A model generated the notes under the pieces. The model searched no databases. It had not been told where the DNA came from and worked only from the letters and a program-made list of their open reading frames with translations. A program made the position numbers and the translations under genes. A DNA stretch of 64,000 nucleotides from Flavobacterium praedii (lineage in GTDB: Bacteria > Bacteroidota > Bacteroidia > Flavobacteriales > Flavobacteriaceae), in NCBI RefSeq assembly GCF_026810365.1, contig NZ_CP113948.1, positions 2,443,001-2,507,000 of the forward strand, read 5' to 3'. Below, in pieces: positions 30,966 through 33,498 of this stretch. The stretch's first letter is position 1, and every line of letters starts with the position of its first letter.

Positions 30966-31208
30966 TTAACCGCAAGGTACACAAAGAATACCGCAATCCC
31001 CATAGCTCAGTATCATTAAGGTTAAGGGATTTCTAGCTAGGTTTTCTCTAAATCTAACCCTCGCAAAGACGTAAAGAAAAAGGGCCCACACTTTGCGTCT
31101 TTGCGTCTTCGCGAGAATAATAAGAGCTTAACTTAATCACATTGCCCATAGCCATCAGAACGCTAAGCTTTGCAGACATTACGCCTCCTTTGCGAGCATT
31201 GCGGTTAA
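30966..31208. repeat. Large imperfect nested palindrome with CGCAAAGACG words
   Basis: The 330-base gap upstream of map contains three nested inverted pairs: TTAACCGCAA/TTGCGGTTAA (30966-30975 and 31199-31208), ATTAAGGTTAAG/CTTAACTTAAT (near 31014 and 31128), and CTCGCAAAGACG with CGTCTTCGCGAG (near 31059 and 31104). The CGCAAAGACG unit is repeated. No ORF is present. Confidence 0.65.
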
Positions 31209-31285: not shown

Positions 31286-32104
31286 ATGATTATTCAAAAA
31301 ACCCGTGAGGAAATAGAATTAATGCGCGAAAGTGCACTAATCGTATCAAAAACATTAGGAATGATTGCTTCTGAAATAAAAGAAGGAGTTACTACATTAT
31401 ATCTAGACCAAAGAGCCGAAGAATTTATTCGTGATCACGGCGCAGTCCCAAGTTTTCTTGGTCTTTATGGTTTTCCAAATTCATTGTGTATGAGTCCTAA
31501 TTCACAAGTTGTACACGGAATCCCGAACAACAAACCGTTGGAAAGCGGCGATGTAATTTCGGTTGATTGCGGTGCTTACAAAAATGGCTACCACGGAGAC
31601 CACGCCTACTCTTTTGAAATTGGAGAAGTGGCTGAAGAAACTAAAAAATTATTACGCATAACCAAAGAATCACTATACGTAGGAATCCGCGAATTGCGTG
31701 TGGGTAACCGTGTGGAGGATGTTGGTAATGCAATCCAAAAATATACTGAATCTCATGGTTATGGTGTTGTTCGAGAATTGGTGGGTCATGGTGTAGGGCA
31801 AAAAATGCATGAAGATCCCGAAATGCCAAACTACGGTAAAAAAGGCCGTGGAAAACTTTTGATTGAAGGAATGGTTGTTGCTATTGAGCCGATGATCAAT
31901 TTGGGAACCAAAAACATCAAACAACACAAAGACGGTTGGACAATCACCACCGCCGACGGAAAACCATCTGCACATTTTGAACACGATGTAGCCATTATTG
32001 ACGGGAAACCTGAGATTTTATCGACGTTTGCCTATATCTACAAAGAATTGGGAATCTTGAGCAATGAAGAAGATGAGTTTAGAAAAGTACCTTTGGTTAT
32101 TTAA
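31286..32104 (+). CDS. map: Type I methionine aminopeptidase
   Basis: A cytoplasmic dinuclear-metal peptidase of 272 residues that removes the initiator methionine. The metal ligands are recognisable in order: Asp in VISVDCGA, Asp in GYHGDHAYSF, His in VGHGVGQKMHEDPEMPNYG, Glu in VAIEPMIN, and Glu in HFEHDVAI. The length and PNS start MIIQKTREEIELMRES fit the E. coli-like type Ia family. The stop codon adjoins an AAACACAG repeat arm. Expression would come from TATTTTTG at 31258-31265. It is one of the safest calls in the window. Confidence 0.97.
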   Translation: MIIQKTREEIELMRESALIVSKTLGMIASEIKEGVTTLYLDQRAEEFIRDHGAVPSFLGLYGFPNSLCMSPNSQVVHGIPNNKPLESGDVISVDCGAYKNGYHGDHAYSFEIGEVAEETKKLLRITKESLYVGIRELRVGNRVEDVGNAIQKYTESHGYGVVRELVGHGVGQKMHEDPEMPNYGKKGRGKLLIEGMVVAIEPMINLGTKNIKQHKDGWTITTADGKPSAHFEHDVAIIDGKPEILSTFAYIYKELGILSNEEDEFRKVPLVI

Positions 32105-32135
32105 AACACAGATTTCACAAATTTGCACAGATTAA
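32104..32135. repeat. Left inverted arm flanking the GxxExxY gene
   Basis: A 32-base arm built of CACAGATT(T) subunits (opening AAACACAGATTTCACA). It is complementary to the arm at 32600-32631 with 30 of 32 positions matching. It starts at the last base of the map stop codon. Confidence 0.85.
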
Positions 32136-32223
32136 AATAATATTGAAATAAAATCTTCTAACGCTTAAATAAATTATTGCAATTAATAAAAACTAAGCCA
32201 AATATCTTTTCTACGAATTAAAA

Positions 32224-32598
32224 ATGGAAGAATTTTATCTAAAGGAAGAAACATATAAAATAATTGGAATCTGCATGGAAGTCCATAAAATTCTAGGCAA
32301 AGGTCATAGTGAAATAATTTATGGCGATGCACTAGAATATGAGTTTAGGAAAAATAGCATTCCTTTCGAAAGAGAAAAAAAATATAATATTACATACAAA
32401 GACATAATTCTGCCTCATCATTATTTTTCAGATTTTGTGATTTTTGAAGAAATAATTTTAGAAATAAAAGCAATTCAAGAACTCTCAAGTAGTGAAATAA
32501 AACAAACGCTTAATTACCTTGCAGCATCAAAAAACAAAATTGGTTTACTAATAAATTTTGGAGAAGATAGCTTGAAATACAAACGAATCATACTATAA
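32224..32598 (+). CDS. GxxExxY-family protein (PD-(D/E)XK-like mini-nuclease)
   Basis: A 124-residue protein with the family signature G-H-S-E-I-I-Y (GKGHSEIIY, about residues 25-34), preceded by GICMEVHKILG. A putative nuclease core follows: Asp in HYFSDFVIF (about 66-72), then EEIILEIKAIQEL with ExK, and a C-terminal NYLAASKNKIGLLINFG. The family is related to PD-(D/E)XK nucleases by sequence; its activity is not established. It stands alone between two inverted 32-base repeat arms, its stop codon two bases from the right arm. This suggests it moved, or is maintained, together with those repeats. The ATG at 32224 fits the family length. Confidence 0.9.
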   Translation: MEEFYLKEETYKIIGICMEVHKILGKGHSEIIYGDALEYEFRKNSIPFEREKKYNITYKDIILPHHYFSDFVIFEEIILEIKAIQELSSSEIKQTLNYLAASKNKIGLLINFGEDSLKYKRIIL

Positions 32599-32599
32599 A

Positions 32600-32631
32600 T
32601 TAATCTGTGAAAATCTGTGAAATCTGTGTTT
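32600..32631. repeat. Right inverted arm flanking the GxxExxY gene
   Basis: A 32-base arm (opening TTAATCTGTG, closing AATCTGTGTTT) inverted relative to 32104-32135. It begins one base after the GxxExxY stop codon and contains both candidate start codons of the next gene. Confidence 0.85.
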
Positions 32632-33381
32632 AAACTTATACTCAATACAATCCCACGTCCCATTCTTATTCGACTAAGTTATGTTGCACGTCCTTTTATC
32701 GCTTTTTCATTAAAAGGAGATAAATATACAGACCCAATTGACGGGAAAAGTTTCAAATCGTTCTTGCCTTACGGCTACGAAACACAACGCAACAATGTGC
32801 TTTCACCAAGTACACTTTCGTTGGAGAGACATCGCTTGCTTTGGTTGTACTTAAACGAACAAACTGATTTTTTTACGGCTCCAAAGAAAGTATTGCATTT
32901 TGCGCCAGAACAGGCTTTTTATAAATTGTTCCGCAAACAAAAAAATTTGGATTACACTACAACTGACTTATTTTCGCCTTTGGCAGATGTAAAAGCAGAT
33001 ATCTGTAATTTGCCTTTTGAAGACAATCAATACGATGTTATTCTTTGCAATCACGTATTGGAACACATTCCGGATGATACCAAAGCGATGCAGGAATTGT
33101 ACCGTGTTTTAAAACCTGGCGGAATGGCTATTTTGCAAATTCCACAAGATTTGAATAGAGACGTAACCTTTGCAGACGACACAATTACAGATCAAAAAGA
33201 ACGTGCAAAAATCTTTGGGCAATACGACCACGTGCGTATTTATGGCCGAGATTATTTTGATAAACTAAGAAGCATCGGTTTTACAGTTGTCGAAGAAGAT
33301 TACACCAATAAAATAGCTCCCGAATTGGTAGAAAAATATTGTTTAGCAAAAGGAGAAATCATTCCAGTTTGTTTTAAATAA
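32626..33381 (+). CDS. Class I SAM-dependent methyltransferase (Methyltransf_11 type)
   Basis: A methyltransferase of about 251 residues. The SAM-binding region begins with VLHFAPEQAFYKLFRKQ rather than the classical GxGxG. The post-motif NLPFEDNQYDVILCNHVLEHIPDDTKAMQELYRVLKPGG is textbook for the family. The substrate is unknown. Two in-frame GTG codons (32617 and 32626) both lie inside the right repeat arm. The second gives MFKLILNTIPRPILIRL, which best resembles a natural N-terminus, so it is used here. The repeat has evidently replaced or supplied the initiation region. It is separated from the SNF2 gene by another copy of the same repeat. Confidence 0.85.
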   Translation: MFKLILNTIPRPILIRLSYVARPFIAFSLKGDKYTDPIDGKSFKSFLPYGYETQRNNVLSPSTLSLERHRLLWLYLNEQTDFFTAPKKVLHFAPEQAFYKLFRKQKNLDYTTTDLFSPLADVKADICNLPFEDNQYDVILCNHVLEHIPDDTKAMQELYRVLKPGGMAILQIPQDLNRDVTFADDTITDQKERAKIFGQYDHVRIYGRDYFDKLRSIGFTVVEEDYTNKIAPELVEKYCLAKGEIIPVCFK

Positions 33382-33408
33382 ACACGATTATTGATAGTTA
33401 AAAAATTC

Positions 33409-33485
33409 AACACAGATTTCACAGATTTACACAGATATATCATTAGGTTAGATAATAATCTGTGTAAATCTGTGAAATCTGTGTT
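33409..33485. repeat. Gene-less copy of the AACACAGATTTCACAG palindrome
   Basis: Perfect 28-base inverted arms at 33409-33436 and 33458-33485 around a 21-base spacer. They are built from the same CACAGATT(T) subunits as the GxxExxY-flanking arms. It ends 13 bases before the TTG start of the SNF2 gene. Confidence 0.9.
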
Positions 33486-33498
33486 TAAATAATCACAT

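Follow-up and report, generated by a model that had tools for sequence, protein, structure and literature searches.

A GxxExxY gene lies between palindromic arms

The stretch of DNA analyzed here, hereafter the window, comprises 64,000 nucleotides (nt) of the genome of Flavobacterium praedii (contig NZ_CP113948.1), and the element in question is a small GxxExxY gene that lies inside a palindromic repeat between map and a methyltransferase gene. The left arm (32101..32135, plus strand) is composed of three degenerate 9–10-nt units of the form CAC-NN-ATT, namely CACAGATTT CACAAATTTG CACAGATT, and the right arm (32600..32634, minus strand) is its near reverse complement. An inverted-repeat search gave arms of 35 nt each, 91% complementary and 464 nt apart; an earlier note on this DNA had described 32-base arms around one GxxExxY gene, and their 32-nt core proved to be this same pair. 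The sole open reading frame (ORF) of at least 70 amino acids (aa) between the arms is the GxxExxY gene (32224..32598, plus strand), which encodes 124 aa. On the left, map (31286..32104, plus strand) ends in the first bases of the left arm, and on the right the ORF of the methyltransferase (32617..33381, plus strand) begins with a GTG within the right arm. The element thus apparently supplies the methyltransferase start codon (GTG, 32617); relatives read ATGAAA there.

A second palindrome, built of CACAGATT units as in the window arms and devoid of a gene, lies between the methyltransferase and a helicase gene (arms 33406–33436 and 33458–33488, no strand). Its arms are 97% complementary across a 21-nt loop, and folding as DNA yielded −29.3 kcal/mol (z −12). 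The earlier note had reported a gene-less palindrome downstream, as found here, and had taken the gene to be carried by a palindrome of which empty copies also exist, which these data support. An Rfam search (E 1) returned six sub-gathering matches to microRNA precursors in the hairpin at 33.4 kb and one match to a snoRNA elsewhere. An RNA family was rejected as the identity of the palindromes.

The GxxExxY protein resembles Cas4/RecB nucleases

The encoded protein scored 132.9 bits against TIGR04256 (cut-off 35) and 117.1 bits against PF13366 (PDDEXK_3; cut-off 22), the only families matched in Pfam and NCBIfam scans. Six residues, E30, D70, E80-x-K82 and Q94xxxY98, are invariant in 59 sequences and in the 8 copies of the F. 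praedii genome, and we take them from family knowledge to be the PD-(D/E)XK active-site residues. The predicted structure (predicted local distance difference test, pLDDT, 94.5) matched Cas4/RecB nucleases, the top match in the Protein Data Bank (PDB) being Cas4 SSO0001. Cas4/RecB nucleases share the fold of the window protein and its active-site pattern of D, ExK and QxxxY; SSO0001 has 202 aa, whereas the window protein has 124 aa and is encoded by a stand-alone gene. A search of solved structures by sequence found no credible relative (one match at E 0.34). The model thus points to a predicted minimal Cas4/RecB-type PD-(D/E)XK nuclease. The PD-(D/E)XK likeness proposed in the earlier note was upheld, with the correction that the enzyme is of the Cas4/RecB type and is not one of the REP-associated tyrosine transposases (RAYT) of repetitive extragenic palindromes (REP).

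Enclosed copies in the F. praedii genome

The genome (4.17 Mb, one contig) carries 8 GxxExxY genes. Six lie between arms whose inverted-repeat score is at least 15 (250-nt flanks), the two below this threshold scoring 10 (L023) and 8 (L026). Each of these six genes has arms of its own sequence: ACCATTAAG, ACCATATAAG, CACAGATT, CACGAATT, CACAAATT and ACACATAGA. As a control, we took 864 kb of this genome, made up of the window and 40 stretches of 20 kb (one of them partly masked), and scored 652 ORFs, with flanks of 250 nt, for an inverted repeat that spans the ORF. The window gene ranked first (score 26), and 4 of the 651 others reached 15, two of which are flanked by repeats of the ATATAAG and ATTAAG families. 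When only ORFs of 90–170 aa were considered, 1 of 144 reached 15, and this was the window gene.

Gene-less palindromes of the same arm families are present in the sampled 864 kb. Another gene-less palindrome with a different unit motif (CGCAAAGACG..., CGCAAAG units) lies in the window upstream of map (arms 31062–31076 and 31091–31105). Elsewhere in this genome, a 20-kb stretch (L271; positions 8298, 10257, 10892, 11397 and 18181) holds at least five copies of the palindrome CGCTACAAGCAATTTGGG, one of them a variant, with loops of 72–73 nt.

Arm motifs recur across bacteria and follow the protein subfamily

Of 398 genomes in the genus, 330 carry TIGR04256, with 1–11 copies each (at most 11 candidates were scored per genome). 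We collected 203 loci from several phyla and dropped 8 with an ORF below 100 aa, which left 195; the genus-survey loci among them are the 30 best-scoring rather than a random draw, and one gene was entered twice (L170 and L195), also in the selection and arm-concert tests below. With arm classes set after inspection of the first loci, 114 loci were labeled CNCNNAG, 41 CNCNNATT and 2 TAAG-type, and 38 received no label. CNCNNAG or CNCNNATT arms were thus seen at 155 of 195 loci versus 2 of 652 control ORFs of the F. praedii genome. Any label was given to 157 of the 195 loci versus 24 control ORFs, 22 of the latter being TAAG, a class that is unspecific and rests on 2 loci. By the same rule, the AG or ATT label fell on 3 of 157 neighbor ORFs clear of the element and on 10 of 4000 random placements. 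The earlier note had named two observations that would count against it, GxxExxY genes elsewhere that lack such flanks and arms equally common at unrelated genes; the label counts do not refute its reading on the first point, and on the second the arms were not as common. Accidental flanking of the gene by repeats of an AT-rich genome has low GC in its favor and nothing else, and with 4 of 651 other ORFs at 15 and the random placements just given it is refuted, its probability being negligible.

The genome-collection loci considered are the best 80 of 586 confirmed loci. These 80 are mostly from Bacteroidota, the other record labels being Ignavibacteria, Balneolaceae, Chlorobiaceae, Planctomycetota, Chloroflexota/Anaerolineales, Alphaproteobacteria and Pyrinomonadaceae, although bin labels may be wrong; no arm label was given to L135 (Chlorobiaceae) or L142 (Anaerolineales). 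Among the 74 with an ORF of at least 100 aa, 25 scored at least 15 and 46 at least 12, compared to 4 and 16 of 248 neighbor ORFs. Three of those four neighbors are four-helix-bundle genes (TIGR02436, 87–102 bits) with AGTGTTCAGT-type arms, and the fourth shares an arm with the adjoining GxxExxY element, its right arm being that element's left arm. The motif points inward on both sides, CNCNNAG averaging 5.7 per genome-collection locus in arm orientation versus 1.8 in the other. The pairing of gene and arms therefore recurs widely, as the labels at 155 of 195 loci support.

Arm classes were then compared with a maximum-likelihood tree of 143 non-redundant proteins, 110 of them labeled. On this tree, which rests on few columns, leaves many forks open and does not correct for host relatedness, the arm class changes 4 times, versus a mean of 29.1 and a minimum of 23 in 300 shuffles. 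The window genus alone (31 rows) gave 2 changes versus a mean of 11.0 and a minimum of 7. L219 is an exception within the window's clade, and a small CNCNNATT-labeled clade sits on the CNCNNAG side (L053, L240, L248, L252 and L253), the arms of L248 and L252 being CGCAGATT-type. Different clades with different arms were found in the same genome and at the same site. We conclude that nuclease subfamilies each go with one unit motif, CNCNNATT with the window's subfamily and CNCNNAG with the commonest one. The arm unit CACAGATT given in the earlier note is therefore correct in the window and fails as a general rule, since the unit motif differs by protein subfamily.

Two other origins were considered and rejected. 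One CNCNNAG-type protein had no match in 50,697 phage records, and the window protein reached only E 0.012 in PHROG, which disfavors a phage gene; a relative of the same CNCNNAG-type protein was present in 8 of 72,556 plasmid records, which disfavors spread by plasmids.

Empty and occupied sites in relatives

The map/methyltransferase junction was compared at 50 loci, 49 of them readable (48 genomes). Because 20 ortholog stretches were chosen mostly for a long map–methyltransferase gap, the following counts are not frequencies: 18 of 49 junctions hold a window-type gene; 14 hold the other type, including some broken copies and one gene that was entered twice; 8 are empty or nearly so; 6 hold short remnants or other palindromes; and 3 hold two-gene inserts. 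Empty sites in relatives, which the earlier note had proposed to look for, were thus found. In seven of them (L160, L162, L167, L168, L169, L173 and L197) the stop codon of map and the start of the methyltransferase overlap as TAATG. Where other species carry a nuclease gene at this junction, it is either of the window type with CNCNNATT arms or, with CNCNNAG arms, of another subfamily that shares 34–42% identity with the window protein. Arm class matched subfamily at 27 of 27 labeled map-site loci (16 window-type and 11 other; 26 distinct genes), with four occupied loci (L164, L177, L183 and L185) outside the labeled set.

At a second ortholog site, behind a conserved GAATTAA stop, 9 of 20 loci hold a gene of the window's side of the tree, two have gaps of 28 nt (L314) and 48 nt (L305), and the rest hold other palindromes or genes. 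At both sites the element lies directly behind the stop codon. The spacer that holds the 33406–33488 palindrome was readable at 17 of 30 loci and contained different palindrome families, or 6 nt in the case of L168.

Other inserts were also observed. The two-gene inserts at the map junction (L189, L191 and L192) are about 1.9 kb long and encode two proteins, an ATPase that by eye appears OLD/RecF-like and a small one with a nuclease-like VEFK motif; those of L191 and L192 have a CNCNNAG-like left arm remnant. At this junction, L179 and L190 carry another insert, about 150 nt long, that contains the palindrome CCTGCAAGGTTTTCAAAACCTTG, and L306 carries a palindrome of type TCATTGCGAGGAACGAAGCAATC at the second site.

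Genes at the map site are conserved in place and their arms evolve in concert

At the map site, dN/dS was 0.095 for window-type genes (17 genes, 103 pairs) and 0.11 for the other type (11 genes, 48 pairs), compared to 0.048 for map, with dS near 1.5 and so close to saturation. Window-type distances tracked those of map (r 0.53, 16 loci, 0 of 2000 permutations). The nuclease genes are kept by purifying selection while staying in place. Left and right arms of one element matched each other better than arms of other same-class elements at the same site (18.7 versus 13.9, 0 of 20,000), and the second class behaved likewise (15.5 versus 10.9, 6 of 20,000), the own partner being the single best or tied arm in just 4 of 17 and 2 of 11 cases. 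Either selection maintains the pairing or one arm serves as the template for the other.

These observations bear on an explanation in which the arms pair within the transcript of the operon, thereby allowing the insert to be excised or insulated, and the nuclease serves defense or repair. RNase III cuts out intervening sequences (IVS) of 23S rRNA. Consistent with such a function, the elements immediately follow stop codons, at the map site within a junction whose stop and start codons overlap in the empty state; purifying selection acts at a fixed site, and the two arms evolve in concert. It leaves unexplained the many repeats of the same motif elsewhere and their dependence on the gene (see below), as well as the matching of arms to proteins; moreover, no PADLOC defense family matched the window protein at E 0.1, defense roles outside the known families being possible. 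We consider this explanation quite unlikely.

Repeats are numerous in genomes with several copies of the gene

Forty-eight genomes of the genus were chosen by gene number: 18 without the gene (of 20, the two least complete being left out), 10 with one and 20 with 3–11. Exact CACRRATTNCACRRATT matches totaled 11, 53 and 932 in these three groups and exact CRCRRAGNNNCRCRRAG matches 20, 56 and 396, versus 14, 6 and 16 for a reversed AG control. The totals include the arms of the genes but in multicopy genomes far exceed them in number (G121 has 215 ATT matches and 11 genes). Motif number followed gene number with a rank correlation of 0.78, and a partial correlation of 0.62 at constant genome size and RAYT number, values that are inflated by the choice of genomes by gene number and uncorrected for shared ancestry within the genus. 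Co-occurrence of repeats and gene across genomes, as in REP/RAYT, is thus supported.

The same data speak to the possibility that a Y1 (HUH) transposase moves REP-like arms and the GxxExxY gene rides along. Y1_Tnp was matched in 33 of the 48 genomes and correlated with motif number before correction (rho 0.54), yet with gene number and genome size held constant the partial correlation of RAYT number with motif number was 0.01. G004 and G029 have no Y1_Tnp and 70 and 21 motif matches, whereas G027 and G174, with 3 and 5 Y1_Tnp, have 0 and 2. In the F. praedii genome there is one weak Y1_Tnp match (31.5 bits), and with 500-nt flanks the top-scoring inverted repeat at this gene (score 13) differs in sequence. 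The 48-genome comparison gives no support for RAYT as the driver, and we judge such a role highly improbable.

Four-helix-bundle genes are also enclosed by palindromes

The F. praedii genome contains 7 four-helix-bundle genes of the TIGR02436 family (L030–L036). Inverted repeats scoring at least 15 surround 5 of the 7 with 250-nt flanks, their sequence being other than that of the nuclease arms, and all 7 with 500-nt flanks, a setting that has no matched control. The repeat families include AGTGATCAGT and AAAGCTCAAAGC. L034 and the three neighbor genes from other records, L113 (1445–1774), L131 (1251–1622) and L136 (1255–1632), have their protein type and AGTG..CAGT arms in common, which hints that arms match proteins here too.

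These genes are the best support for the main rival explanation, in which palindromes are spread by other machinery, such as replication slippage or a transposase, and small genes are cargo in their loops. An unrelated protein family is enclosed as well, both in this genome and in three further records; the 864-kb sample contains several families of palindromes without a gene, and AG repeats are present in the F. praedii genome without an AG-armed gene. However, arms need not match their cargo under this explanation, yet arm class tracks the protein tree. Ordinary small ORFs are not enclosed, the window gene being the one of 144 that reached 15, and the repeats are scarce in genomes without the gene. 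We regard the cargo explanation as unlikely.

Discussion

Our results slightly favor a cognate pair, formed by a palindrome and its Cas4-like nuclease, that would work like REP/RAYT with an unrelated enzyme; the cutting and movement of the palindrome are what we infer. They suggest an undescribed kind of small selfish DNA element. Such an element would be minimal and two-part: a palindrome of degenerate 9–10-nt unit runs around one nuclease gene of about 120–140 aa. The nuclease would recognize the units of the arms, probably in the hairpin into which the palindrome folds when replication leaves its DNA single-stranded, and may cut or process this hairpin, after which host repair could copy the palindrome, with or without the gene, to a new spot. 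At the two ortholog sites the element persists for long while its nuclease is under purifying selection, and arm copies without a gene (miniature palindromes) lie elsewhere in gene-bearing genomes. The earlier note had proposed a REP/RAYT-like pair in which a nuclease recognizes or spreads the palindrome. Co-occurrence, recurrence and the match of arms to subfamilies argue for the pair, the enzyme is not a RAYT, and recognition and spreading keep the conditional standing given above.

Several observations weigh against this interpretation, in addition to the way in which the 48 genomes were chosen and their shared ancestry. Enclosure by a palindrome is not unique to the nuclease, and the four-helix-bundle family is not described as nucleases. 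No arm label was assigned at 38 of the 195 loci. Two genomes without the gene, G081 and G044, have 15 and 9 motif matches, and six one-gene genomes have at most 2. The F. praedii genome has 41 AG-motif matches while 0 of its 8 genes is AG-labeled, which means either that arm and gene classes are not strictly paired inside a genome or that a gene of the AG type has been lost. The other 7 copies in this genome share only 28–55% identity with the window protein, and their arms are different, so there is no sign of a recent burst of copying. Since their distances track those of map, window-type genes at the map site are largely vertically inherited. Finally, no target-site duplication was recognized by eye at the two ortholog sites, which have diverged.

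TIGR04256 proteins are common, yet unexplained in the literature that we searched (bioRxiv and most subscription papers lay outside it), and in this literature no description of the pairing of GxxExxY/PDDEXK_3 with palindromes was found. The parts seen of PMC12306157, which came from a search for Flavobacterium palindromic repeats, of PMC6006769, and of PMC10910872, PMC5524665 and PMC4990558 on four-helix bundles and IVS do not describe it; PMC8934634, retrieved for GxxExxY, is unrelated as far as the portion seen goes, and six arm sequences searched as text gave no match. If the pairing is right, TIGR04256 gains a job and abundant palindromic repeats are partly explained; palindrome-spreading nucleases would then have arisen outside the HUH superfamily, from the Cas4 fold. 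With a 124-aa protein and a 35-nt arm, the pairing is directly testable. More broadly, and tentatively, GxxExxY proteins could be enzymes dedicated to a class of palindromic selfish DNA that is large, undescribed and spread over several phyla, an independent REP/RAYT-like invention, of which the four-helix-bundle elements would be a sister class with the 23S rRNA IVS as its best-known insertion type; this wider view is quite possible, though we would not yet lean toward it.

Among known systems, pairs of miniature inverted-repeat transposable elements (MITE) and insertion sequences (IS) have inverted ends, one gene and short gene-less derivatives, all of which the element resembles. It differs in that the encoded protein matches no DDE or HUH transposase, the arms are degenerate tandem units, and copies within one genome have low identity; at our two sites, which have diverged, no target duplication was recognized by eye. 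The IVS of 23S rRNA have inverted-repeat stem ends and, like the window element, one small ORF inside. They lie in 23S rRNA and encode the S23p family, whereas the window element is intergenic (map/methyltransferase), encodes a TIGR04256 protein and has arms that track the subfamily. An IVS with an S23p/four-helix-bundle ORF, for example that of Coxiella, is called a selfish genetic element in the part of PMC4990558 that was available to us.

The closest likeness is to REP/RAYT (also REPtron or TnpA-REP). According to the sections consulted of PMC6006769, its small palindromes occur between genes in many copies and flank the gene of a cognate nuclease, each protein subclass has its own palindrome type, and the distribution is patchy. 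Each of these features has its like here, and palindrome families co-vary with enzyme subclass as in REP/RAYT, but with a PD-(D/E)XK protein. There the enzyme is a HUH tyrosine transposase and its gene stands beside several palindromes; here the enzyme is a Cas4/RecB-type PD-(D/E)XK nuclease by prediction, the gene lies inside one palindrome, and several nuclease subfamilies occur in one genome. Neither GTAG nor GTGG, the GT[AG]G foot of REP/RAYT, is present in either window arm. Because the HUH enzyme is absent and the window arms lack this foot, we conclude that the element is not a member of REP/RAYT.
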